From: Leuconostoc palmae
GTDB taxonomy: Bacteria; Bacillota; Bacilli; Lactobacillales; Lactobacillaceae
Direction of reading: 5' to 3'
Length of the DNA stretch: 64,000 nt
Assembly (NCBI RefSeq): GCF_019656075.1
Contig: NZ_BPKZ01000005.1
Span: 1 to 64,000 of the forward strand
In this document: in pieces, positions 1 through 60,974 of the stretch
Numbering within the stretch: the stretch's first letter is position 1
Layout of the letters: every line of letters begins with the position of its first letter
Notes under the pieces: generated by a model
What the model was told of the DNA's origin: nothing
Seen by the model: only the letters and a program-made list of their open reading frames with translations
Database searches by the model: none
Made by a program: the position numbers and the translations under genes

Positions 1-72
1 AAGCTCTATCACGCCGAAAGTAGTTGCCGGATCGCTGGCTGCGAGGATAGGAAGATGCGGTGCCGTACATAG
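1..72 (+). CDS. C-terminal tail of a truncated CDS, possibly Spx
   Basis: Frame 1 is open from the window edge to a TAG at 70-72, just before a terminator, so this is the 3' end of a gene that starts outside the window. The visible 23 residues are rich in charged residues and contain three cysteines; they end in RKMRCRT. In many Firmicutes spx lies directly upstream of mecA, and a VR-x-LYHAES-like tail could follow the usual Spx C-terminal motif. That assignment rests on gene order only; no diagnostic Spx motif is visible. Confidence 0.4.
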   Translation, partial: KLYHAESSCRIAGCEDRKMRCRT

Positions 73-73
73 G

Positions 74-99
74 AAGTACTCTGAGAAGAGTGCTTTTTT
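74..99 (+). terminator. Rho-independent terminator
   Basis: An 8-bp stem (AAGTACTC with GAGTGCTT, one G-U pair) with a 6-nt loop is followed by a run of six T. It ends the transcript entering from the left and isolates mecA. Confidence 0.85.
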
Positions 100-183
100 G
101 TTTTATACCATTGAATATAAAATTTTAAATTTTGCTTTTATCTTTAAATATAGCTAAAATAGTTATGAAAGGTGGTGTCAATA

Positions 184-903
184 ATGGAAATGGAACGCAT
201 TAATGATAATACAATCCGTGTCATGATTGAGAATACAGACCTTAAAGAAAGAGGTATTTCCATTGCAGAACTTTTAGGAAATCATGAAAAAATAGAATCT
301 TTTTTCTATAGTATTCTTTCTGAAGTCGATGTTGAACATGATTTTGGTGATGATGATCAAGTGACTTTTCAGATATTACCTAATAGAAATGGTCTAGAAT
401 TATTCATATCAAGGATATCCGAAGATGATCAAGTCGGTGATATTATCAATAATATAATATCTCACGCGAAGAAGAGTACATCAGATTTAGATGATATTTC
501 GGATAAGCGCCGTACAGAATTACAACAGTCAGATAATGGCGATAAAGTCGAAATAAATCAATCAACAAGTATTAGGGAATCTAAAAATTTAAATAAACCT
601 GCCTTAATAAATAATGTAATTGCATTAAAAATATTAGATTTTGAAAATCTTATTGTAATTTCTGATTTGTTGCAAGATTATTCATTATCATCAGATCTAT
701 TTAAATATGATGATAACTTTTATTTGGTTTTGAGATTTTTAGATAAATCTTTGAGTCAAGATGATATTGATAACCTAAAATCTTTTGCTATTGAGTTTTT
801 ACAATTAAGTGACAAAGATAGTGATGTTCTGAATGAACATGGACAATTAGTTTATAAAGAAACTGCATTAGCTAGTATACGTAAAATTTTTAAACACAAT
901 TAA
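184..903 (+). CDS. mecA: Adaptor protein MecA
   Basis: MecA is the cytosolic adaptor that delivers unfolded or specific regulatory proteins to the ClpC-ClpP protease. The N-terminus MEMERINDNTIRV, the LKERGI segment and the VTFQILPNRNGLELFIS stretch are hallmarks of the family. The C-terminal part (about 150-239) matches the ClpC-binding domain in length, after an acidic, low-complexity linker near residues 95-145. The start is taken at ATG 184, not at GTG 172, because AAAGGTGG lies about 8 nt upstream and family members begin MEMERI. It stands alone between a terminator and a weak promoter for the next gene. The length of 239 aa is normal. Confidence 0.95.
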   Translation: MEMERINDNTIRVMIENTDLKERGISIAELLGNHEKIESFFYSILSEVDVEHDFGDDDQVTFQILPNRNGLELFISRISEDDQVGDIINNIISHAKKSTSDLDDISDKRRTELQQSDNGDKVEINQSTSIRESKNLNKPALINNVIALKILDFENLIVISDLLQDYSLSSDLFKYDDNFYLVLRFLDKSLSQDDIDNLKSFAIEFLQLSDKDSDVLNEHGQLVYKETALASIRKIFKHN

Positions 904-916
904 GCATAAATTTTGA

Positions 917-959
917 TATAATGGAGGAATTGATGCTAATTGGAAGAGGTTTGACATGA
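917..959 (+). promoter_or_regulatory. -10 box and 8-codon upstream ORF before the rhodanese gene
   Basis: A TATAAT sits at 917-922. TGGAGG just after it serves an ATG at 933 that reads MLIGRGLT and stops with TGA at 957-959, overlapping the ATG (956) of the next gene. The downstream gene also has its own GGAAGAGG at 942-949, so coupling is possible but not required. The small ORF may be chance. Confidence 0.35.
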
Positions 960-1360
960 ACATATTTGTAACTGTTGCTATGGTTCTTATTCTATGGCTT
1001 TTAATGACATTCTTTAGTTGGTTGTGGGTTATAATCAGTGCAAAATCAACTGGTACTATACTGACTTCTGATCAATTTTCGCAAAAAATTGAGGAAACAC
1101 ACTCAGCTCAAATAATTGATGTAAGAGAAACAAGTACTTATAAGCGATCACATATTATGGGTGCCAGAAACATACCTAGTATGAATTTTTCTCAAGGTAA
1201 GTCTGGACTACGAAAAGACAGAGATATATTTTTATACGATGATAGTTTAAGAAATGTTTTACGAGCTAGCAAGGCACTAAAAAAACAATCATATGACAAG
1301 CAACATATTTTTTTGCTACGGGGTGGGTTTAAAAATTATCCTGGGAAAAAAACAAACTAA
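956..1360 (+). CDS. Membrane-anchored rhodanese-like protein without catalytic Cys
   Basis: This 134-aa protein has one N-terminal membrane segment (about residues 4-27) followed by a cytosolic rhodanese fold (about 38-130). IIDVRE and HIMGARNIP are the typical rhodanese CH2A region and substrate-loop neighbourhood. At the place of the active-site loop the sequence reads LYDDSLRN, so the sulfur-accepting cysteine is missing and sulfurtransferase activity is unlikely. It resembles the YqhL-type small proteins of Firmicutes that have an N-terminal anchor. The role is unknown; a binding or scaffold function is an inference. It is monocistronic, with a strong terminator right after the stop. Confidence 0.8.
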   Translation: MNIFVTVAMVLILWLLMTFFSWLWVIISAKSTGTILTSDQFSQKIEETHSAQIIDVRETSTYKRSHIMGARNIPSMNFSQGKSGLRKDRDIFLYDDSLRNVLRASKALKKQSYDKQHIFLLRGGFKNYPGKKTN

Positions 1361-1396
1361 AAGCAATAACTAAGATAGCTTAGTTATTGCTTTTTT
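1361..1396 (+). terminator. Rho-independent terminator
   Basis: A perfect 14-bp stem (AAGCAATAACTAAG and its complement) with loop ATAG is followed by T residues. It starts directly at the stop codon of the rhodanese-like gene. Confidence 0.92.
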
Positions 1397-1453
1397 GTTT
1401 CTGAAATAAAAACCTTTTTTTTCATGAAAAGAGCAGTATACTTAATGTATAAA

Positions 1454-1467
1454 TGTAAGCGGTTACA
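1454..1467 (+). promoter_or_regulatory. cre site (CcpA operator)
   Basis: TGTAAGCGGTTACA fits the catabolite-response consensus TGWAANCGNTNWCA at every position. It lies just after possible -10 hexamers (TATACT 1437-1442 or TATAAA 1448-1453) and before the ribosome binding site of the lplA remnant, a place where bound CcpA would block transcription. ccpA itself is in this window at 28334. The site now controls only a decayed locus. Confidence 0.75.
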
Positions 1468-1484
1468 ATAAAGGTGGGGTATTG

Positions 1485-1979
1485 ATGCAATACATAAATT
1501 ATTTTAACCAAGATGCGTATACTAATATTGCTATGGATTCATGGTTATTGAAAAACCTAAAAAACGATAAGCCAGTGTTTTCATTGTGGCAAAATAAAAG
1601 AGCTGTTATTGTTGGCGAGAATCAGAATACGTTTTCAGAAGTCAACGCTGACTATGTTAAAGATTATGATGTGCAAGTGGTGAGACGTGTTTCAGGAGGA
1701 GGTGCAGTTTATCACGATTTAGGAAATATTTGTTTTACGTTTTTTGTTCCAGTGTCTAGTAGTGCAAAAGTCGACTTTAAGCAATTCGTTAAACCTATGG
1801 CAGATGCACTCGAATCTTTAGGTATAAATGTAAAAATTTCAGGGAGAAATGATTTAGAGATAGCAGGCAAAAAAGTCTCTGGAAATGCACAGCGTTATTC
1901 TGGGGGATATCTAATGCATCACGGAACTTTACTTTGGGATACGGATGTTGATGCAATGGTTAGGGCACTAAATGTAGCG
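1485..1979 (+). pseudogene. lplA: lplA 5' fragment (lipoate-protein ligase A)
   Basis: The first about 165 codons encode the N-terminal half of lipoate-protein ligase: NIAMDSWLL, the RRVSGGGAVYHD lipoyl-AMP loop, GRNDLEIAGKKVSGNAQ and HGTLLWDTD are all present. Intact homologues are about 330 aa. Similarity ends abruptly after ALNVA, and three codons later a TAG (1989-1991) stops translation. The DNA from about 1979 onward belongs to a dihydrolipoamide dehydrogenase gene. The start is ATG 1485, behind AAAGGTGGGG, rather than TTG 1482. The enzyme would lack the rest of its catalytic core and its C-terminal domain, so I call it non-functional. Confidence 0.9.
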
Positions 1980-2777
1980 TTGAAGGATTAGATCATACGC
2001 TTAATGGTTTTGATGCTGAAATGACGAAACCAGTATTAGCCGATTTTGAACAACATGGTGGTCATATCGTGACATCTGCCATGGCAAAATCAGCACAACA
2101 AACTGACCAGGATGTTAGTTTGACGTATGAAGTTGATGGAGAAGAACACACTATAACTGGCGATTATTTGCTAGTTGCTGTTGGCCGTCGGGCTAATACA
2201 GATGGATTAGGTTTAAATAATACGGATATCAAGCTAAGTGACCGAGGTTTAATTGAAATTGCGGATACCATGCAAACAAATGTGTCACATATTTATGCAA
2301 TCGGGGATGTGACAATTGGCCCTCAGTTAGCACATAAGGCGAGCTTTCAGGGTAAAATAGCTGCTGCTGCCATCGCTGGTGAAGCTCAAGCACGTACGTG
2401 ACTTGCACTATTCTCTGCCTGGCGTGGCGTATACACAGTTTGAGTTAGCGACAACTGGCGAAACGCCAGAGTCTGCTAAGGCAAAACAACTAGATGTTAA
2501 GATTGCTAAATTCCCATTTGCCGCTAATGGGCGTGCTATCTCGATGGATGAGACAACCGGATTTATTCGACTAATTAGTGATACAGCAACACATGGCTTG
2601 TTAGGTGCGCAAATCGTTGGTCCCAGTGCTTCTGATTTGATATCAGAGTTATCATTGGCGATTGAAAATGGTTTGACCACCAATGATATTTCACTCACAA
2701 TTCATCCACATCCAACATTAGGCGAAGCCATCATGGATACAGCTGAATTAGCGGATGGTTTACCAATTCATATTTAA
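1979..2777 (+). pseudogene. pdhD: pdhD/lpdA 3' fragment (dihydrolipoamide dehydrogenase)
   Basis: From 1979 the frame reads VEGLDHTLNGFDAEM and continues through the NAD-domain end, the FAD motif IYAIGDVT (near 2290) and AHKASFQGK, all typical of E3 of the pyruvate dehydrogenase complex. About the first 200 residues, including the FAD-binding GxGxxG and the redox-active Cys pair, are missing. The frame is also broken at about 2388-2400: one frame ends EAQART-stop, while the natural continuation HVRDLHYSLPGVAYTQFE is in another frame. The dimer-interface motif TIHPHPTLGEA is still legible before the end at 2777. Two separate lesions make this clearly dead. Confidence 0.92.
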
Positions 2778-2805
2778 CAGATTTTCTGAATTTAAAAGGA
2801 GTAAC

Positions 2806-3609
2806 ATGGCAAAACTGACAACAAATGATCATGTGATGTTAGACTATCATATCTATGATTCTGGACAACCAATCATATTAGTGGCCGGTTATTCAGGTAA
2901 TCAGGCGACGTGGTCTGGACAGATTGATCATCTGGTCGCAAATGGGTTACAAGTGATTACCTATGATAGACGTAATCATGGTGATAGTGACAATGTTGAC
3001 TATGGCATGCGTTTATCACGTCATGGGCAAGACTTAGCTGAATTAATTGCAAGTCTTAAGTTAAAACAACCTATATTATTGGGACATTCAATGGGGGCTA
3101 GCACGATTTGGGCCTACTTGTCATTACATGGAGATGATAACGTTTTGGGCATCATTACAGAAGATCAAGTCCCGGTTATGGTTAAGCAAAAAGACTGGCA
3201 ATTTGGTTTATTTCAAGCCGATTTTGAGCATGTCACCGAAGCAATGAGCAAACTTCCTAGTACGAAATTAACCAATATTAAGCTATCAGAACAAATGAAA
3301 CGTCAAATTAGTCTGCACTATAAACCATTTGATTTTCAATATAATGCACCGCTATTATTTAATAGCCTATTGCAAGATTGGCGTGACGTCGTTGCGCGTG
3401 AAAAAGTCCCCCATCTCTTTATTGCGGGTGATAAATCGCCCCTTTGGTCAGCCCAACATGCGGTGGTGACAAGCCAATTAACAACTAAAGGCGAATATAT
3501 TATTATCAAAGATGCCGGTCATATACCACATATTGAAGCACCAGACACCTTTAATCAAATTGTTAGCAATTTTATACAGAAAATAATCTCAATAAAAAAC
3601 GCCACCTGA
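2806..3609 (+). CDS. Alpha/beta-hydrolase
   Basis: This is a 267-aa soluble serine hydrolase of the alpha/beta-fold superfamily. GHSMGAS is the nucleophile elbow (catalytic Ser), YDRRNHGDS is the strand/loop before it, and GHIPHIEAPD carries the catalytic His; the acid is probably the Asp in IAGDKSPL. The substrate cannot be told from sequence; esterase, lactonase and haloperoxidase-like members share these motifs. The start is ATG 2806 with AAAAGGAG upstream; the open frame extends further back only through the pdhD remnant. It lies 28 nt after the pdhD fragment, so it may once have been expressed from that operon. Confidence 0.85.
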   Translation: MAKLTTNDHVMLDYHIYDSGQPIILVAGYSGNQATWSGQIDHLVANGLQVITYDRRNHGDSDNVDYGMRLSRHGQDLAELIASLKLKQPILLGHSMGASTIWAYLSLHGDDNVLGIITEDQVPVMVKQKDWQFGLFQADFEHVTEAMSKLPSTKLTNIKLSEQMKRQISLHYKPFDFQYNAPLLFNSLLQDWRDVVAREKVPHLFIAGDKSPLWSAQHAVVTSQLTTKGEYIIIKDAGHIPHIEAPDTFNQIVSNFIQKIISIKNAT

Positions 3610-3627
3610 GTTGTGTGGCGTTTTTTT
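3594..3627. terminator. Bidirectional terminator
   Basis: AAACGCCAC pairs with GTGGCGTTT around a 9-nt loop, with A and T runs on both sides. It separates two convergent genes whose stops are only 20 nt apart (hydrolase and permuted ahpF). Confidence 0.9.
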
Positions 3628-3629
3628 AT

Positions 3630-5312
3630 TTATGCATTTACATTTTCAATTGCTGTCACGATATCTGACATCGTTTGACTGCCAAAAATAATATCTGGTT
3701 GATCATCAATCATCATCGCTGGCACACTCATAATGTGATGCGAATTTCTAATGTCAGGGAAAAGCTGTAAGTCAATCATTTCAGCTGAGACATGTGGATT
3801 CAGGGCTGCGATGTGCTGACAGGCAGCAACAACATCTGGACAAAAATGACAGGTTAGTGACACACCAATTTTAATATTAGTTGGTGGTAAAGCCTTGATA
3901 CGTGATTGAAGTTGCGTATCAAGGCTTTGTCCTGGACCAGCAACGTTGTATAGTGCAAGTACTAACGAGTTTAATTCATGACCAGTGGGAATACCACTAA
4001 ATGCAATACCTGTGGCTGCATTATTTTCATTGAGTAATGTAAAATGTGGTAATAATGGCATGTCGGCAGCTTTTGCTTCGGTGATACGCAATGTTAAATG
4101 TTGACTTAATGAAGCTAATTCGGTTAAAAATGACGATAATTCATGACTTTTATCACTATTATCTGTGATTTGAGACAGAATAACTGTTTTGGATAGTTGG
4201 TCAAAAATAGGTTGGAGTTGCTTGATTAAATTTTGATCGAACCATTGTCCTTGATGTTGGGTTGCAATATGTGGTTCATCTCCCAGTTGCGATTGTTGTC
4301 GCATATTGTCAGGTTGCTGGTGTTTTTTTGTAATCTGTGTGCGTTGAATAGGAATATGCAATGCTTTCTTAAGATTTGTGACATAAACTTCGGCACTTGT
4401 TGCAGCATTTGCACCATCAGCCGCCGCAGTGACAATCTGACGTAGTGGCTTAGCAATCACATCGCCAGCAGCAAAGACACCGGAAATATTAGTTTGACAT
4501 TTATTGTCAGCGATAATGTATTTATCATCGTCGAGTGTTAACTCTTCTGTGAATAAATCAGTTTGCGGGTCGGTCCCGACATAAATAAACATGCCAAAAG
4601 TGTTGTCACCTTGAGCAACATGATAGACTTTCTTTTCATGTGTTTGATTATTAACAAAGACAGCTTCAGTTAAATAATCTTTACCCGAAACAGATTGCAC
4701 TTCAGTGTTTGGCCAAACCGTAATATTGTCATTAAGTCGCGCGCGATCGGCTGTTAGTGGCGGACAAGTAAAATCATCGGAGCGCATCACAACAGTCACA
4801 TGTCTAGCAAAACGTGTTAAATATTCAGCTTCTTCAGCTGCGGCGTAACCACCACCGATGACAAAAACTTCCAAACCGCTAAATAATTCGCCATCACAAG
4901 TTGAACAATAGGCAATACCACGGCCACGAAATTCTTTTTCACCTGTAAAACCAACTTGATGAGGTTGGGCGCCGGTTGCGATAATAATGCTGCGAGCTTG
5001 ATAAGTATTTTGCTTGCCTGAAACTGTTTTAACTGCTGGTTGACTAAAGTCAACTGATGTAATGGTATCGGATACAAAATTAACACCAAACGCATCAGCT
5101 TGTTGCTTCATGTTATTCACCAATTGAGTACCCTCAATGGTATCTACCGCTGGATAATTGGCGACACTTGATGTGGTTGTAACTTGTCCACCGATTTGGT
5201 TGCCTTCGATAATCAATGTGTCCATCGTGGCACGGCCAGCATAAATACCAGCAGAAAGTCCGGCTGGACCACCACCAATAATCAAAGTGTCATAAATGTG
5301 GGGGTTTGTCAT
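3630..5312 (-). CDS. ahpF: AhpF-like peroxiredoxin reductase, domain-permuted
   Basis: This 560-aa flavoprotein is expected to pass electrons from NAD(P)H through FAD and disulfides to AhpC. Residues 1 to about 315 are a thioredoxin-reductase-type core: GGGPAGLSAGIYAGR (FAD), CSTCDG with the redox pair Cys136/Cys139, the NAD motif VIGGGYAAAEEA, and the second FAD motif GVFAAGDV. After a Gln/His-rich linker (about 320-360) comes a region that aligns by eye with the N-terminal tandem thioredoxin domain of enteric AhpF, ending in SLTCHFCPDVV (Cys488/Cys491). In classical AhpF this domain comes first, so the order here is reversed. The start is ATG 5312, with AGAGG about 9 nt upstream, 13 nt after ahpC's stop. 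Cotranscribed with ahpC. Confidence 0.9.
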   Translation of the reverse strand: MTNPHIYDTLIIGGGPAGLSAGIYAGRATMDTLIIEGNQIGGQVTTTSSVANYPAVDTIEGTQLVNNMKQQADAFGVNFVSDTITSVDFSQPAVKTVSGKQNTYQARSIIIATGAQPHQVGFTGEKEFRGRGIAYCSTCDGELFSGLEVFVIGGGYAAAEEAEYLTRFARHVTVVMRSDDFTCPPLTADRARLNDNITVWPNTEVQSVSGKDYLTEAVFVNNQTHEKKVYHVAQGDNTFGMFIYVGTDPQTDLFTEELTLDDDKYIIADNKCQTNISGVFAAGDVIAKPLRQIVTAAADGANAATSAEVYVTNLKKALHIPIQRTQITKKHQQPDNMRQQSQLGDEPHIATQHQGQWFDQNLIKQLQPIFDQLSKTVILSQITDNSDKSHELSSFLTELASLSQHLTLRITEAKAADMPLLPHFTLLNENNAATGIAFSGIPTGHELNSLVLALYNVAGPGQSLDTQLQSRIKALPPTNIKIGVSLTCHFCPDVVAACQHIAALNPHVSAEMIDLQLFPDIRNSHHIMSVPAMMIDDQPDIIFGSQTMSDIVTAIENVNA

Positions 5313-5325
5313 GAATTTAAGCCTC

Positions 5326-5892
5326 TTAAATTTTACCAACTAGATCTAAGCTAGGCGCAATGGTGTCTTCGCCTGGATGCCAATTTGCTGGGCAAACACG
5401 ATCGCCGTGTTCAGCCACAAATTGTGCGGCTTCTAGTGTACGGAGAATTTCTTCGGCATTACGACCAATACCCATATTATTGATTGTATAAGACTGAATT
5501 TTCCCTTCAGGATCGACGATAAAGACAGCTCGGAATGCTAAACCGGCGTCTTCATCTAAGACATTGAAGAAACGTGCTAATTTGCCAGCGGGATCAGCAA
5601 GCATTGGATACTTTACTTTAGCGATGGTATCTGTTGCTTCGGCCCAGGCTTTATGAACAAATTCGCTATCTTCTGAAACCGAATAAATTTCAGCATTAGC
5701 CTTTTGGAAATCAGCATAATGGTCAGCTAAGTCACCTAGCTCTGTAGGGCAAACAAATGAAAAGTCAGCGGGATAAAAGAAATACACGCCCCATTTTCCT
5801 AGGGTATCTTGCTTAGTAACTTGTGTGACGTCGCCGTCGTGATAGGCGTTGACAGAAAAGTCTGCGATTTCTTGGTCAATAAAGTTAGTCAT
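5326..5892 (-). CDS. ahpC: Alkyl hydroperoxide reductase subunit C (2-Cys peroxiredoxin)
   Basis: AhpC reduces H2O2, organic hydroperoxides and peroxynitrite in the cytosol. The 188-aa length is typical. DFSFVCPTEL holds the peroxidatic cysteine (Cys48) and RVCPANWHPG the resolving cysteine (Cys167), as in typical 2-Cys peroxiredoxins. The start has an excellent AAAGGAGG site. It is the first gene of the ahpC-ahpF unit. A PerR-like box overlaps its -10 region, suggesting induction by peroxide. A TetR-type gene is divergent from it. Confidence 0.97.
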   Translation of the reverse strand: MTNFIDQEIADFSVNAYHDGDVTQVTKQDTLGKWGVYFFYPADFSFVCPTELGDLADHYADFQKANAEIYSVSEDSEFVHKAWAEATDTIAKVKYPMLADPAGKLARFFNVLDEDAGLAFRAVFIVDPEGKIQSYTINNMGIGRNAEEILRTLEAAQFVAEHGDRVCPANWHPGEDTIAPSLDLVGKI

Positions 5893-5913
5893 AATGATTT
5901 TCCTCCTTTTAAA

Positions 5914-5928
5914 TTATAATCATTCTAA
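5914..5928 (-). promoter_or_regulatory. PerR-like box over the ahpC -10
   Basis: TTATAATCATTCTAA matches the PerR consensus TTATAATNATTATAA at 13 of 14 defined positions. On the minus strand it contains the TATAAT that fits as the ahpC -10, just upstream of the AAAGGAGG site. PerR or Fur-family repression is therefore likely. The regulator gene itself is not in this window. Confidence 0.7.
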
Positions 5929-5995
5929 ACTAACTTCAGTATACAACGCAATTAATAAAAAAATCAAGGGGATATTAAATTAATTATTATTTTAC

Positions 5996-6024
5996 TTGAC
6001 CGATCAGTCAAATAAAACTATACT
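5996..6024 (+). promoter_or_regulatory. Promoter with TetR-type operator for the 6031 gene
   Basis: TTGACC (5996-6001) and TATACT (6019-6024) are 17 bp apart. The inverted repeat TTGACCGATCAGTCAA (5996-6011), with one mismatched pair, covers the -35 and part of the spacer, a classic autorepression layout for TetR regulators. The predicted transcript would begin at about 6031, which is the start codon itself. Confidence 0.75.
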
Positions 6025-6030
6025 AAGGGC

Positions 6031-6426
6031 ATGGGTAGAAAAAAAAGTTTTGATCAACATATCGTCGTTGCACAAATGAGTACAGTGTTTGTGCAGCGTG
6101 GTTTTGAAGGGACATCTTTAGATGATTTAGTCACAGCGACAGGATTATTACGTGGCAGCCTTTATAGTGAATTTGGTAGTAAACAGGGCATGTTTATGGC
6201 GTGTTTAAAAGCAAATTTGAAGAAGCAACCATTAGATGATGTCACATGGTTTTTGTTGCTTGTGGCAATGCTAGAATTGACGTCAAATAGCCAAGCTGTG
6301 AATGAAATCGTCAGTCAGTGGTACGCCAAACAGAATAGTCCTAATATTGCAACGCAATTAGGACAACAGTTGCTGAAGTATAGTCATATTTTATCGGGGG
6401 ATAACGACAATGGAAAACGTAGTTAA
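6031..6426 (+). CDS. Short TetR/AcrR-family regulator
   Basis: Residues about 6-52 form the TetR DNA-binding domain (GFEGTSLDDLVTATGLLRGSLYSEFGSKQGMF, with the Y-x-x-F-x-S-K-x-x-M/L helix signature). The whole protein is only 131 aa, whereas most family members are about 190, so the ligand-binding half is abbreviated. There is no natural Shine-Dalgarno at a useful distance; AAGGG ends only 1-2 nt before the ATG. It overlaps the next gene by 17 nt and is divergent from ahpC. The ligand is unknown; control of its own operon is inferred from the operator in its promoter. Confidence 0.85.
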   Translation: MGRKKSFDQHIVVAQMSTVFVQRGFEGTSLDDLVTATGLLRGSLYSEFGSKQGMFMACLKANLKKQPLDDVTWFLLLVAMLELTSNSQAVNEIVSQWYAKQNSPNIATQLGQQLLKYSHILSGDNDNGKRS

Positions 6427-6763
6427 TATACAAAATGAGCAATTAGTGATTGAACCAATCGGATTGACTAAAATTGCAGCACTTAAAGAGCGTATTGCGA
6501 TACCATTGACGCACGTTGTTGGTGCTTCAATCGATACTGGCATAATCAATGAAAGTAAGGGATTCAGAATGCCGGGAACAGCCATACCCGGTTACTGGGC
6601 AGGTACGTTTCGAAAAAATGATGAAATGACCTTTTTTAACATTAAACACACGAGCTTACCAGTTGTTATTCAACTTAAAGATGAAAAATATACGCGTTTG
6701 GTACTAGGCGTTGATAAGCCACGTGAGTTAGTGACTTTGATTAATAATCATGTGCTATCATGA
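6410..6763 (+). CDS. PH-like domain protein
   Basis: This 117-aa soluble protein has an all-beta pattern and a region reading IPLTHVVGASID then GFRMPGTAIPGYWAGTF and DKPRELVTLIN, which resembles bacterial pleckstrin-homology-like domains (DUF-type, often next to membrane or regulator genes). It starts inside the tetR-type gene (17-nt overlap), which argues for translational coupling and a shared function. No catalytic motif is visible and no function can be assigned. Confidence 0.65.
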   Translation: MENVVNIQNEQLVIEPIGLTKIAALKERIAIPLTHVVGASIDTGIINESKGFRMPGTAIPGYWAGTFRKNDEMTFFNIKHTSLPVVIQLKDEKYTRLVLGVDKPRELVTLINNHVLS

Positions 6764-6840
6764 TATTTTTGGCAATTTTTGGTGGTAGGCATAAAATAGA
6801 GAAAATAAATAATAATCAGTAAACATCATGGAGGCTTGAA

Positions 6841-7611
6841 ATGACGACGATTCCTGAATTATTTGATTTAACAGGTCGAGCTGCAATTGTCACTGGTGGG
6901 GCATCCGGACTTGGTCAATACTATGCGCAGGCTTTGATTGGTGCTGGCGCCGATGTTTTTGTGGTTAGCCGTTCCGAAAAAGGTTGGCAGGAACTCCGAC
7001 AGTTTGCAGCATAACATGGGCGACAAGTTGTGTTTATGACACAAGATTTAACTGCTGAACAAGCCGCTATTAATGTCATTACTGAATTTAAAAAGCATTT
7101 TGAATCGTTAGACATTTTGATTAATAATGCAGGTGTTCAAATTCGTAACGATATCGTGAGTTATCGTGATGAAGATTGGCAAAAAGTAATTGATATTAAT
7201 CTTAATGCACTGTATTATTTGTCACATGAAGCCGCTAAAGTGATGATTACACAAAAATCTGGGAAAATTATCAACATTGGCTCCATGCAATCGTTTCGAG
7301 CTGGAAAATATATTTATCCCTAGGCAGCTAGCAAACATGCTGTCGTTGGTTTGACCAAAGCGTATGCAGATGCGCTGGCGCCTTATGGTATACAGGTCAA
7401 TGCGTTAGCACCAGGTTATATCGACACAGATATGACGAAAGCTTTGCAGGCAGATGAAACACGCAATACAGAGATTCTTAATCATATTCCAGCTGAACAC
7501 TGGGCACAACCGTCGGAACTAATGGGGACGATAGTCTATCTCGCTAGTTCAGCTTCTAATTATGTCATTGGCGCAACGATTCCTGTTGATGGCGGCTACT
7601 TATTACGTTAA
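6841..7611 (+). pseudogene. kduD-type short-chain dehydrogenase with two in-frame stops
   Basis: One continuous frame of 256 sense-equivalent codons matches the KduD/gluconate-5-dehydrogenase group of SDR enzymes: AAIVTGGASGLGQ (NAD(P) motif), LDILINNAG, SGKIINIGSM (catalytic Ser region), ASKHAVVGLTK, LAPGYIDTDMTKAL and VDGGYLLR at the end. TAA at 7012-7014 and TAG at 7321-7323 interrupt it. The second stop is at the position four residues before the Lys of ASK, exactly where the catalytic Tyr of YxxxK should be. A good ribosome site (GGAGG) remains before ATG 6841. The gene is dead unless both stops are sequencing errors. Confidence 0.92.
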
Positions 7612-7644
7612 AAAAAGAGACCACCTGTTGAGGGTCTCTTTTTT
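7612..7644. terminator. Terminator after the kduD pseudogene
   Basis: AAAGAGACC pairs with GGTCTCTTT (9-nt loop) and is flanked by A and T runs, so it could serve both strands. Confidence 0.88.
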
Positions 7645-7657
7645 AGTGACGTCATGG

Positions 7658-7741
7658 TTAACGTTTAGGCTGCACTTTTAATACAAACAAGAGTAATAAC
7701 GATAAGATTGGGACAATAATCATGACTTGGTAAACAGACAT
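7658..7741 (-). pseudogene. Possible C-terminal remnant of a membrane transporter
   Basis: The minus strand encodes 27 residues: a single hydrophobic helix (VMIIVPILSLLLLLFVLK, with one Leu run approximated) followed by a basic tail ending in KR. No ribosome site precedes its ATG, and an in-frame stop lies just upstream. This looks like the last transmembrane helix of an MFS-type permease left behind by deletion; kduD-like genes often sit next to such transporters. A chance ORF cannot be excluded. Confidence 0.3.
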
Positions 7742-7847
7742 AAAGGCTCATCTTGATTCATAGTTATGCTAAAACAAGTAATCGAAACACTGCTTTTTAT
7801 TAGGGATCTCAATTACTTTACAGTTTATATAAATCAAGAGTAAATAA

Positions 7848-7882
7848 AAAACTTTCCCGTACAGTGTGGAAAAGTTTTTAAA
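7848..7882 (-). terminator. Terminator of the DUF3042 gene
   Basis: On the minus strand a stem AAAACTTTTCC with GGAAAGTTTT (one bulge) is followed by a T-rich stretch, right after the gene that ends at 7893. Confidence 0.7.
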
Positions 7883-7892
7883 AAATTAAACG

Positions 7893-8075
7893 TTAAAAGC
7901 GTGATTGGTGTGCAGAAATACTACGGCGAATAGCTTGCTTAGAAACTTCATCATGGTGCTCCTCAGCTTTTTGAGCTGGCTTCACAATTGTTTGGCGATA
8001 GCCAATAGCTGAAGCAGCAGCGACAAAAGCAGAAGCAATAATGCCAACGAAAACGCCTGATTTAAATGATTTCAT
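7893..8075 (-). CDS. DUF3042 family small membrane protein
   Basis: This is a 60-aa protein beginning MKSFKSGVFVGI, with one hydrophobic segment (about residues 6-26, Ala/Ile rich) and a basic, His-containing tail ending SISAHQSRF. It fits the DUF3042 family, which is conserved in Lactobacillales and has no known function. The start is ATG 8075, preceded by AAAAGAG; the longer open frame upstream is rejected. It is monocistronic and divergent from the GDPD gene. Confidence 0.8.
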   Translation of the reverse strand: MKSFKSGVFVGIIASAFVAAASAIGYRQTIVKPAQKAEEHHDEVSKQAIRRSISAHQSRF

Positions 8076-8147
8076 AATATTCGCTCTTTTCTTAAGTTTC
8101 TTAAGTCCTATTATCAACTATTTTAGTCTATTTGTAAATGAGTTTAG

Positions 8148-8153
8148 TATAAT
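8148..8153 (+). promoter_or_regulatory. -10 box of the GDPD gene, leaderless geometry
   Basis: TATAAT at 8148-8153 is 6 nt from the ATG at 8160, so transcription should start on or next to the start codon. No good -35 is seen (AGTCTA at the 17-bp position). There is no Shine-Dalgarno sequence. Confidence 0.6.
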
Positions 8154-8159
8154 TGAACT

Positions 8160-8909
8160 ATGAATAAAAAAACAGAAATTATTGCACACCGAGGTTATCG
8201 CATTGTTGCACCCGAAAATACAATTCCTGCTTTTGAAGCAGCGCTGGCTTATAATCCAGATATGTTAGAAATGGACGTACATCGTACTCAAGACGGTCAT
8301 TTAGTTGTTATTCATGATGAAAAGGTTGATCGAACAACCAATGGCAGTGGCTATGTTAAAGATTTAACATTAGATGCAATTAAGCAATTAGATGCGGGAA
8401 GTTATAAAGAACCTCGCATGATAGGCATTAAAATTCCAACACTTGAGGAATTTTTGACCTTTTTAAAAGAGAAAAATTATGATAAAACATTACTATTAGA
8501 AATTAAGACAGATCATGTAGCATACCCTAATATTGAAAAAGAAATCGTTGACATGATAGGTTTATTTCAGCCAACATATCGGGTAATTTATCAAAGTTTT
8601 AATCTCGAGACATTAAAAATTGTACGTCAGTTATTACCTCAAGCCGAAATTGCGGCGTTAGTTTTTTCAACAACGCCTAAGGTGTATTGGCTTAAATTTT
8701 GTGGTGTTTTTGACTATATTCATACTGACATTCGGATATTAAAACATAAACCCAAATTTTTGTGGACTTTTAATCAACATATTCGAACATGGACAGTTGA
8801 TAGCGAAGATGATATGCGTATAGTTTTTAAATCACAATTACCTGGTTTAATAACTAACCAAGTTGCTTTAGCAGTTAAAATTCGTGCAGAGATTCAAGGT
8901 GAAAAATGA
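8160..8909 (+). CDS. Glycerophosphodiester phosphodiesterase
   Basis: This enzyme hydrolyses glycerophosphodiesters to glycerol-3-phosphate and an alcohol. The 249-aa protein has the GDPD signature: IAHRGYRIVAPENT at the N-terminus (catalytic His plus Arg and Glu), LEMDVHRTQDGHLVVIHD (metal-binding Glu/Asp and second His), and LLEIKT. No signal peptide is present, so it acts in the cytosol like UgpQ. Its last codons overlap miaA by 4 nt, so the two form an operon. Confidence 0.93.
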   Translation: MNKKTEIIAHRGYRIVAPENTIPAFEAALAYNPDMLEMDVHRTQDGHLVVIHDEKVDRTTNGSGYVKDLTLDAIKQLDAGSYKEPRMIGIKIPTLEEFLTFLKEKNYDKTLLLEIKTDHVAYPNIEKEIVDMIGLFQPTYRVIYQSFNLETLKIVRQLLPQAEIAALVFSTTPKVYWLKFCGVFDYIHTDIRILKHKPKFLWTFNQHIRTWTVDSEDDMRIVFKSQLPGLITNQVALAVKIRAEIQGEK

Positions 8910-9808
8910 ATAAAATACTTATAATTACTGGGCCAACGGCATCTGGGAAAAGTGATTTAGCCATTCAGATGGCAGAAAAATATAATGGAGAAATTGTATC
9001 TGCAGATGCTATGCAAATATATCGCAAGTTAAATGTCGGCACTGCAAAAGTAACAGTAAGTGAACAAAAAAAAGTACCCCATCACTTAATTGATATTGTA
9101 GATATGACAGCACAATTTTCAGTTGCTGAATTTTTGGAAAAAGCTGATGAAGTTGTCCTTGATATTATTTCGCGCGGAAAATTACCTATTATGGTTGGCG
9201 GAACAGGATTCTATGTTAAGGCTTTTATTGGTGAAGCAACTCTTGATTTTGTTGCTAGCAATTCAGATGAAGTTAAGCTGTTAAATAAAGAGCCTATTGA
9301 CACTCTTGTTGCACAATTAAAGCAATTAGATAATGATTTAGCTCATCGTGTTGATTTAAAAAATAAGCAGCGTGTTGTTCGTGCAATACAAATTGCACGT
9401 CATGGTAAACATTCTGATATACAAAAACGGCCGGATTATGATTCGCTAATTATTGCTATTGATTGGGAAAGAGAACTTCTTTATCAACGTATCAATTCGC
9501 GTGTTTACAATATGATTGATAACGGGTTGATTGATGAAGCCAAATTAATTTTAGAAGCTGGTGGAGAAACTATTCAAGCAGGAAAGGCAATTGGATACAA
9601 AGAATTATTTCCATATCTGGAACATAATATGTCACTAGAGACGTCAATTAGTCAGATTCAACAAGATTCTAGAAGATATGCGAAACGCCAATTGACATAT
9701 TTGCGTCATCAAATTCCTGGATTAGTCTGGATTGATGGTTATCATGCCAAAGCAGTATTATCAAATAAAATAAATAACTGGTTAAATAAAAAAACACATG
9801 TCAATTGA
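8906..9808 (+). CDS. miaA: tRNA dimethylallyltransferase MiaA
   Basis: MiaA transfers a dimethylallyl group to A37 of tRNAs reading codons that start with U. GPTASGKSDLA (residues 9-19) is the P-loop, followed by VSADAMQIYRKLNVGTAK and GGTGFYVKAF, all diagnostic. The length of 300 aa is normal. It starts within the GDPD stop (ATGA overlap). The last codons are part of a 34-nt palindrome and overlap the convergent antiporter gene by 8 nt. Confidence 0.97.
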   Translation: MNKILIITGPTASGKSDLAIQMAEKYNGEIVSADAMQIYRKLNVGTAKVTVSEQKKVPHHLIDIVDMTAQFSVAEFLEKADEVVLDIISRGKLPIMVGGTGFYVKAFIGEATLDFVASNSDEVKLLNKEPIDTLVAQLKQLDNDLAHRVDLKNKQRVVRAIQIARHGKHSDIQKRPDYDSLIIAIDWERELLYQRINSRVYNMIDNGLIDEAKLILEAGGETIQAGKAIGYKELFPYLEHNMSLETSISQIQQDSRRYAKRQLTYLRHQIPGLVWIDGYHAKAVLSNKINNWLNKKTHVN

Positions 9809-59683: not shown

Positions 59684-60526
59684 ATGAGTGGTGTAGAAAA
59701 AGAACGTGTTGACGTTTTATTAGTTCAGCAAGGATTATTTGAATCCCGCGAACAAGCTAAGCGAGCAGTTATGGCTGGCGAAATTTTGGGTGAAAATGAA
59801 GAGCGTCTAGACAAGGCAGGACAAAAAATTCCAGTCACCACTGAATTACATTTCAAAGGTGAGAAGTTGAAATATGTTTCCCGTGGTGGTCTGAAACTTG
59901 AAAAGGCGTTAAATGATTTCGATATTTCTGTCACTGATAAAGTTGTCTTAGATATTGGTTCATCAACCGGTGGTTTCACAGATGTGGCTTTACAAAACGG
60001 TGCAAAATTGGTTTATGCATTAGATGTTGGGACTAACCAACTTGCTTGGAAATTGAGATCTGATAGCCGTGTAAAAGTCATGGAAAATACTAATTTTAGA
60101 TATGCGCAATTAGGAGATTTTGTTTTTGGACAACCTTCATTTGCAACCATTGATGTGTCATTTATCTCTTTGGGATTAATTCTGCCACCATTATCAGATA
60201 TCATTAGTATGGGTGGGCAAGTAGTTGCCCTCATTAAACCTCAGTTTGAAGCAGGGCGTCAACATGTTGGCAAGAATGGCATCATCAAAGATCCCGCAGT
60301 TCATAAGCAAGTTTTACAAAAAATGATACAAGTTATGTTGCATGATGGATTTTCAGTTAAAGCATTGACATACTCACCAATTAAAGGTGGTCAAGGGAAT
60401 ATTGAATTTTTGGCAGTTCTGCAACGCGATGAGCTTGCTAGTATTGAAGAACATATTAGCATTGATCATTTGTTACAACAAACATATGCGCAATTAAATC
60501 ACACAGGTAGTAAAGATGATGAATAA
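59684..60526 (+). CDS. tlyA: TlyA-type rRNA 2'-O-methyltransferase (hemolysin-like)
   Basis: This 280-aa protein has an N-terminal S4 RNA-binding domain (VDVLLVQQGLFESREQAKRAVMAGEI) and a SAM-dependent FtsJ-type methyltransferase domain (YVSRGGLKLEKAL, VLDIGSSTGGFTDVALQNGA, ATIDVSFISLGLILP, ALIKPQFEAGR). It is known as YqxC in Bacillus. The ribosome site is TTGGAGAT. It overlaps argR by 11 nt. Confidence 0.93.
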   Translation: MSGVEKERVDVLLVQQGLFESREQAKRAVMAGEILGENEERLDKAGQKIPVTTELHFKGEKLKYVSRGGLKLEKALNDFDISVTDKVVLDIGSSTGGFTDVALQNGAKLVYALDVGTNQLAWKLRSDSRVKVMENTNFRYAQLGDFVFGQPSFATIDVSFISLGLILPPLSDIISMGGQVVALIKPQFEAGRQHVGKNGIIKDPAVHKQVLQKMIQVMLHDGFSVKALTYSPIKGGQGNIEFLAVLQRDELASIEEHISIDHLLQQTYAQLNHTGSKDDE

Positions 60527-60974
60527 AAAAATACGTCAAAAAAATTTAATGGCGTTGATTCAAAATCAACAACTGGGTAGACAAGAAGATATTGTCGCTT
60601 ATTTTGAAACGCTTGGTGAGAGTGTCACACAGGCAACAATTTCACGTGATATTAATGAACTAGGATTAATTAAGGTACCAACAAGTTATGGTAGTTTTCA
60701 ATACCATTTACCTAAGCAAGATGACCGCCCACATCTGCAACGTTTAAAAAAGGCAATGCAGCAATCTTTTTTGAGTCAGCGTTCGCAACGTGGACAAATC
60801 ATGATAAAAGTTCAACCTGGTAACGGACAGCTTGTAGCAAATTTGTTTGAACAAGTTAATTTTCCAGAAGTATTTGGTACACTGAGTGATGATGGTACAG
60901 TACTCGTATTATTAAAAGAAGGTGTGGCGACTTTACAGATGACAAATATTATTCAAAAATTGCTTGAAAAATAA
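60516..60974 (+). CDS. argR: Arginine repressor
   Basis: ArgR/AhrC binds ARG boxes as an arginine-dependent hexamer. The 152-aa protein has the winged helix-turn-helix RQEDIVAYFETLGESVTQATISRDINELGLIKV and the C-terminal oligomerisation/arginine domain, with FGTLSDDGTVLVLLKE in place of the usual GTIAGDDTIL-type loop. The start may be ATG 60516 or 60519. It sits in the xseA-recN operon, as in Bacillus. Confidence 0.94.
   Translation: MMNKKIRQKNLMALIQNQQLGRQEDIVAYFETLGESVTQATISRDINELGLIKVPTSYGSFQYHLPKQDDRPHLQRLKKAMQQSFLSQRSQRGQIMIKVQPGNGQLVANLFEQVNFPEVFGTLSDDGTVLVLLKEGVATLQMTNIIQKLLEK

Follow-up and report, generated by a model that had tools for sequence, protein, structure and literature searches.

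Scar joining lplA and pdhD remnants in a Leuconostoc genome borders an L. citreum-like tract and accompanies loss of the pyruvate dehydrogenase genes

In the window analysed here, the whole 64-kb stretch of DNA at the start of contig C5, the 5′ part of lplA is joined to the 3′ part of pdhD, and the join coincides with the left border of a 5.8-kb tract that closely resembles Leuconostoc citreum. We propose, with a probability of about 0.6, that DNA from an L. citreum-like donor was imported by homologous recombination and that deletions across both borders followed, with loss of the pyruvate dehydrogenase (PDH) complex. The scar indicates that PDH was lost within or next to sequence obtained from another species. 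It further illustrates that a gene-fusion scar can mark the border between the DNA of two species rather than a plain deletion.

Structure of the locus

A profile search of the window translations showed that lplA similarity ends at about 1976 (TIGR00545 positions 1-165 of 328; also PF21948) and that dihydrolipoyl dehydrogenase similarity starts at 1979 in a different frame, from position 199 of 461 of TIGR01350. Past the junction, the lplA frame runs through out-of-frame codons to a stop at 1991. When nine Leuconostoc loci were aligned, the left block stopped at 1961-1979 and the right block began at 1979-1982 in all nine, with about 4.5 kb between both break points in those loci. In L. citreum this interval holds the remaining lplA, pdhA, pdhB, pdhC and the first half of pdhD. 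The original prediction, that lplA stops and half of pdhD begins at about 1976-1982, was confirmed by the profiles and the nine-locus alignment, which place the out-of-frame join at 1978/1979. Within the pdhD remnant, a 4-bp tandem duplication at 2392-2395 shifts the frame relative to the L. citreum alignment, and the remnant matches TIGR01350 positions 199-334 and 341-461 in two frames. The features of the locus are as follows.

172..903, + strand: mecA-like gene, recipient DNA (PF05389); marks the ancestral neighbourhood mecA-rhodanese-lplA
956..1360, + strand: rhodanese-domain protein gene, recipient DNA (PF00581)
1485..1991, + strand: 5′ remnant of lplA (lipoate-protein ligase), recipient DNA to 1978 (TIGR00545 1-165/328)
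1978..1979, no strand: left junction, recipient lplA to donor pdhD, 0-1 bp in common
1979..7760, no strand: imported stretch, 97.3% identical to L. citreum G002:C6:727600-721819, GC 40.0%
1979..2777, + strand: 3′ remnant of pdhD, donor type, frameshifted (TIGR01350 in two frames; L. citreum alignment)
2806..3609, + strand: alpha/beta hydrolase gene, imported (PF00561); open, of L. citreum length
3630..5339, - strand: AhpF-like gene, imported (TIGR03143, 683.1 bits, just below the cut-off of 687.65); open, of L. citreum length
5326..5892, - strand: ahpC-like (peroxiredoxin) gene, imported (TIGR03137, 269.6 bits, just below the cut-off of 272; PF00578); open, of L. citreum length
6031..6426, + strand: TetR-type regulator gene, 131 aa, imported (PF00440); length equal to L. 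citreum
6410..6763, + strand: 117-aa gene, imported; length equal to L. citreum, without NCBIfam or Pfam match
6841..7611, + strand: SDR (KduD-like) pseudogene, imported; in-frame stops at codon 58 (7012) and codon 161 (7321)
7655..7760, - strand: MFS transporter gene, last ~106 bp only, aligned to the L. citreum gene G002:C6 720176-721924 (PF07690)
7760..7761, no strand: right junction, donor MFS tail to recipient non-coding sequence; ~2.3 kb of the L. citreum order absent
7893..8117, - strand: DUF3042 gene, 74 aa, recipient DNA (PF11240); syntenic blocks in relatives
8160..8909, + strand: glycerophosphoryl diester phosphodiesterase gene, recipient DNA (PF03009)

The imported ahpF/ahpC pair (3630-5892) is open, whereas three imported neighbours, namely pdhD, the SDR gene and the MFS gene, are broken. 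The mecA-like product shares 51-60% amino acid identity with its relatives in 15 matches, and one further, partial match reaches 32%. Upstream of mecA, window positions 1-99 form the start of the contig and are 94-100% identical to six relatives; this is presumably the end of a ribosomal RNA operon.

Ancestral gene order in the genus

The genus set included nine named Leuconostoc species found through LplA similarity. Across the 18 other genomes of the genus, lplA (PF21948), E1-alpha (PF00676), E1-beta (PF02779) and E2 (PF00198) were adjacent in that order on one contig in 17, adjacency of these genes and of mecA being taken from match coordinates. The remaining genome is split into 890 contigs, where the E1 and E2 matches lay together at a contig end, E1 being partial, and lplA was not found. 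A MecA match was present in 16 of the other genomes; in 10 of these mecA was directly upstream of lplA, as here, and in six it was elsewhere. The order in L. citreum is mecA-rhodanese-lplA-pdhA-pdhB-pdhC-pdhD-hydrolase-ahpF/ahpC-TetR-117 aa-SDR, then an MFS transporter gene (PF07690) and a second regulator-like gene; the names pdhA, pdhB, pdhC and that of the second regulator-like gene are ones that we take to apply. The relatives, therefore, carry lplA-pdhABC(D) at the locus, which bears out the view that the ancestor had lplA-pdhABC-pdhD here. This conserved order is also compatible with a single deletion from lplA to pdhD in vertically inherited DNA, which had been the explanation offered for the scar.

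Origin of the right-hand side of the scar

The two sides of the scar differ in their relationship to L. citreum, a feature that the original prediction had not included. Blocks of window 131-1979 were 66.5-77.5% identical to the nine Leuconostoc loci, L. citreum itself reaching 76.5% in block 131-542 and 69.5% in block 907-1978, and the identity to L. citreum leaps to 97.3% at the junction. From 1979 to 7420, where the compared locus ends, identity to L. citreum ATCC 49370 was 97.35%; comparison with a longer part of the L. citreum contig extended the tract to 1979-7760, at 97.30% over 5786 columns. Against the eight other Leuconostoc species, the blocks containing pdhD were 68-71% identical, and identity in the remaining tract blocks did not exceed 76%. 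To the right, the collinear blocks of 7815-64876 drop to 70-83% relative to L. citreum, with 70.8% in block 7815-9723. The tract displays a feature expected of interspecies replacement, namely 97.3% identity between syntenic flanks at 69-83%. The GC content was 31.8% to the left of the tract, 40.0% within it and 35.0% in the remaining window, while that of L. citreum was 39.2% (340 kb compared). Taken together, the shifts in identity and GC content at the junction indicate that the scar is the border of a 5.8-kb import at a homologous locus.

These observations leave the simple deletion very improbable indeed, as both identity and GC content shift at the junction. In vertically inherited DNA, pdhD, the hydrolase gene, AhpCF, intergenic DNA and pseudogenes would not be expected to be 97% identical to L. 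citreum beside neighbours at about 75%. A simple deletion would imply about 97% identity to L. citreum throughout the remaining genome, and the mean is 75% in the parts compared. The claim of one deletion within a single ancestral sequence, therefore, does not hold; the lplA part is recipient DNA and the pdhD half belongs to the L. citreum-like import.

The distribution of identity to L. citreum was further examined in 659 windows of 500 bp within 334,740 bases. Of these, 340 with under 300 aligned positions were dropped and 13 overlapped the tract, which left 306 outside it for comparison. All 11 windows wholly in the tract were 94.2-98.4% identical, and the two straddling its ends showed 77.0 and 89.0%. 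The 306 outside windows had a mean of 75.1% (sd 6.0, maximum 98.2); nine of them reached at least 90% and four at least 95%. These nine all fell in or over four genes that such bacteria generally express at high levels, namely an SDR gene, adhE, the phosphoketolase gene and a 6-phosphogluconate-dehydrogenase-like gene. The high identity in these four outside genes may reflect ordinary conservation or further short exchange, and we do not claim them as imports. Because of these nine windows, high identity to L. citreum does not by itself single out the tract; what distinguishes it is its length and GC content, together with its non-coding and decayed portions.

In the phosphoketolase gene (C7, about 60044-60800), the first ~750 bp were 98% identical to L. 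citreum and the remainder 88-94%; this first part could be a second, short exchange. The adhE gene was 88.9% identical to L. citreum vs 83.3-83.7% for two other species. Sampled stretches of C2 and C7 alignable to L. citreum had mean identities of 69.5-80.7%, which gives no sign of contaminating L. citreum contigs among these samples, and samples of C1, C3, C4, C9 and C10 had no counterpart of at least 300 bp in the L. citreum stretches compared.

Ends of the tract

The right end of the tract is also cut. The MFS tail meets recipient non-coding DNA, and the remainder of the MFS gene and the regulator-like gene, about 2.3 kb of the L. citreum order, are absent. Neither end shows a homologous crossover, both being joins of non-homologous sequence; the original crossovers may have been deleted later. 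At the left break, the check for direct repeats that accompanied the original prediction yielded none, and only 0-1 bp is shared, given a recipient sequence reconstructed from relatives. An end with so few shared bases is characteristic of illegitimate recombination, although 0-1 bp is below the 3-10 bp of PMC6382021. No transposase was found among the NCBIfam matches listed (up to 25 per piece) for 12 window pieces between 172 and 7608, nor via Pfam in eight of those pieces and in two searched separately.

Words spanning a junction and recurring on either strand of the 80-kb L. citreum locus (type strain only) were at most 8 nt long at the left and 10 nt at the right. These lengths bear on whether the joins at 1979 and 7760 are a chimeric assembly, or contamination by L. 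citreum reads, in a genome that truly keeps pdhABCD. A co-cultured contaminant would be expected to bring in L. citreum-like DNA, and the comparison covered the assembled sequence. However, the shared words are too short for an assembler jump, the tract occupies its syntenic position, flanked on either side by recipient DNA, and the contamination estimate is 0.12%. Furthermore, the genes of the tract carry stops and a frameshift that are not in the L. citreum type strain, and E1 and E2 were found nowhere else in the assembly. We consequently consider an artefact improbable.

Proposed sequence of events

In the proposed sequence, the recipient would have been a Leuconostoc species about 75% identical to L. 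citreum at the DNA level. A stretch of L. citreum-like chromosome would first have entered by homologous recombination at mecA-lplA-pdhABCD-hydrolase. On the left, a deletion from the middle of the recipient lplA to the middle of the donor pdhD would then have removed half of lplA, pdhABC and half of pdhD, and on the right a deletion running out of the donor MFS gene into non-coding DNA of the recipient would have taken away the bulk of that gene along with the regulator-like gene. The outcome would be the remaining 5.8-kb tract, with the PDH complex and the only lipoate ligase found both gone. The genome encodes a ComEC-like protein (PF03772, 771-aa frame), as do 18 of 18 relatives, which makes uptake by transformation possible, and the donor DNA may have entered in this way. 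Neither junction shows the homologous crossover itself, so the order, import first and deletion second, is one that we infer. A point against it is that two deletions each needed to span a crossover. One genome of the species was examined.

The same end state could have arisen in one step, if an L. citreum fragment had paired via internal homology and both its ends had been joined without homology, replacing the stretch from the 3′ part of lplA to pdhD (homology-facilitated or double illegitimate recombination). This agrees with the position of both junctions inside donor genes (pdhD and MFS) and with the 0-1 bp that the left junction shares with the reconstructed recipient. It would, however, need two non-homologous ends at a syntenic place, and according to the extract of PMC6382021 such events occur at 10^-2 to 10^-3 of the rate seen for homologous transformation and involve segments of 3-10 bp, against the 0-1 bp here. 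In addition, the tract is already decaying (two stops and one frameshift), so that later deletions are unsurprising. We therefore regard the one-step route as a tentative possibility. That a single interspecies event replaced lplA-pdhABCD by a donor fragment without pdhABC while importing ahpCF, foreign DNA being the instrument of the loss, is in our judgement doubtful; if true, peroxide-defence genes (ahpCF) were gained and a central metabolic complex was deleted in the same step.

Timing of import and loss

Relative to L. citreum, the pdhD remnant showed 16 synonymous and two nonsynonymous differences (pN/pS 0.04), and the SDR pseudogene showed 12 synonymous and three nonsynonymous differences, of which two were stops. 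Inactivating changes are thus in odd excess among the nonsynonymous changes of the SDR gene. The five open imported genes had pN/pS values of 0.07-0.21 against L. citreum, the hydrolase gene being the most diverged of them at synonymous sites (26 synonymous, 10 nonsynonymous). The low nonsynonymous share suggests that most of the divergence arose under selection on pdhD and the SDR gene in the donor lineage. As the pdhD remnant still shows purifying selection, both import and loss were probably recent.

The LplA remnant was 85.8-89.5% identical to six relatives at the amino acid level, in a comparison of 162 residues, the last one beyond the junction, from which three of nine relatives were dropped as the anchor motif was not found. 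By the same measure, L. citreum LplA was 84.6-88.9% identical to the five others. The remnant is therefore as conserved as full-length LplA, which suggests that lplA was working until about the time of import. From these sequence comparisons, the lplA and pdhD remnants were probably both under selection until recently.

Loss of pyruvate dehydrogenase and acetyl-CoA metabolism

The assembly comprises 1.386 Mb in 28 contigs and is 99.6% complete and not closed. It contained no match to E1-alpha (PF00676) or to E2 (PF00198), vs matches to each in 18 of 18 others. For E1-beta (PF02779) there was none above the cut-off, the single weak match (20.3 bits) lying in the phosphoketolase gene. An intact PDH elsewhere in the assembly was thus sought with E1-alpha, E1-beta and E2, and none was found, in agreement with the prediction that the E1 and E2 genes had been lost. 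The lplA remnant was the only match to PF21948 (LplA) in this genome. A second candidate for dihydrolipoyl dehydrogenase, a 451-aa frame at C2:99935-101245, scored 315.5 bits with TIGR01350, below the cut-off of 408.8, followed by 285.7 for glutathione reductase, and was not counted as pdhD.

PF02779 catches both E1-beta and transketolase. All 18 other genomes had an E1-beta-type match beside E1-alpha and a stronger second match, in frames mostly of 647-670 aa; we infer these second matches to be transketolase. Whereas each of the 18 relatives had a transketolase-type match above the cut-off, this genome had none, and it is smaller than all 18 (1.6-2.3 Mb). The reduction, therefore, seems to extend beyond PDH.

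The genes of the remaining route are in place. Phosphotransacetylase (Pta) is encoded at full length at C5:118803-119759 (334-aa frame), the phosphoketolase gene is present, and AdhE is full length on C7, with the Aldedh and Fe-ADH domains in one protein of a 930-aa open frame. Pyruvate formate-lyase was found in none of the 19 genomes. From this gene content, acetyl-CoA would be formed from acetyl-phosphate through Pta. The prediction that acetyl-CoA supply was left to the phosphoketolase/phosphotransacetylase route agrees with this, as it was the only route seen in a search that covered neither acetyl-CoA synthetase nor pyruvate oxidase nor ferredoxin oxidoreductase.

Comparison with known systems

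Interspecies homologous replacement, which produces mosaic alleles, is known in bacteria. The present locus resembles it in having a syntenic tract at 97% in a 75% background, and differs in that the border of the tract coincides with the loss of an operon. We consider it highly probable that PDH was lost in connection with interspecies gene exchange rather than by simple deletion. This makes the locus a concrete example, open to testing, of genome reduction to which gene exchange contributed. Literature titles on Leuconostoc competence or homologous recombination, on L. citreum gene transfer or pdhA, and on Leuconostoc genome reduction included none on this scar among the matches listed. A search for a Leuconostoc lipoate-protein ligase pseudogene or interspecies recombination, with subscription journals mostly outside its scope, found nothing. 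The kinds of event involved, namely interspecies recombination, illegitimate joining and reductive gene loss, are all known; their combination at one readable scar is a new case.

With regard to the joins, the extract of PMC6382021 describes events with non-homologous ends in transformable bacteria, and double illegitimate recombination events are the topic of work cited in the extract of PMC13344027. As far as these extracts go, the present locus is alike in combining foreign DNA, partial homology and a non-homologous join. Unlike homology-facilitated recombination, it is a natural interspecies scar of which the end state alone is seen, and both of its ends are non-homologous, which later deletion can explain.

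With regard to the loss itself, the extract of PMC4696137 states that PDH genes were not detected in Fructobacillus, that their lack was also reported for Lactobacillus kunkeei and that they are found in Leuconostoc; in Fructobacillus and Lactobacillus kunkeei, reductive evolution is reported to be marked by a lack of PDH. According to that extract, the likeness is that these lactic acid bacteria have small genomes and that their PDH subunits were not found, just as E1-alpha, E1-beta and E2 were not found here. Fructobacillus, as described there, is also without adhE, whereas this genome keeps the gene. A second difference from Fructobacillus and Lactobacillus kunkeei is that all 18 relatives examined have PDH genes, which makes this genome an exception within its genus, and that the scar is still readable. 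The loss of PDH looks recent here, in a genus whose 18 other genomes examined keep PDH. The comparisons with Fructobacillus and Lactobacillus kunkeei show the end state of PDH loss, and this genome retains the scar.
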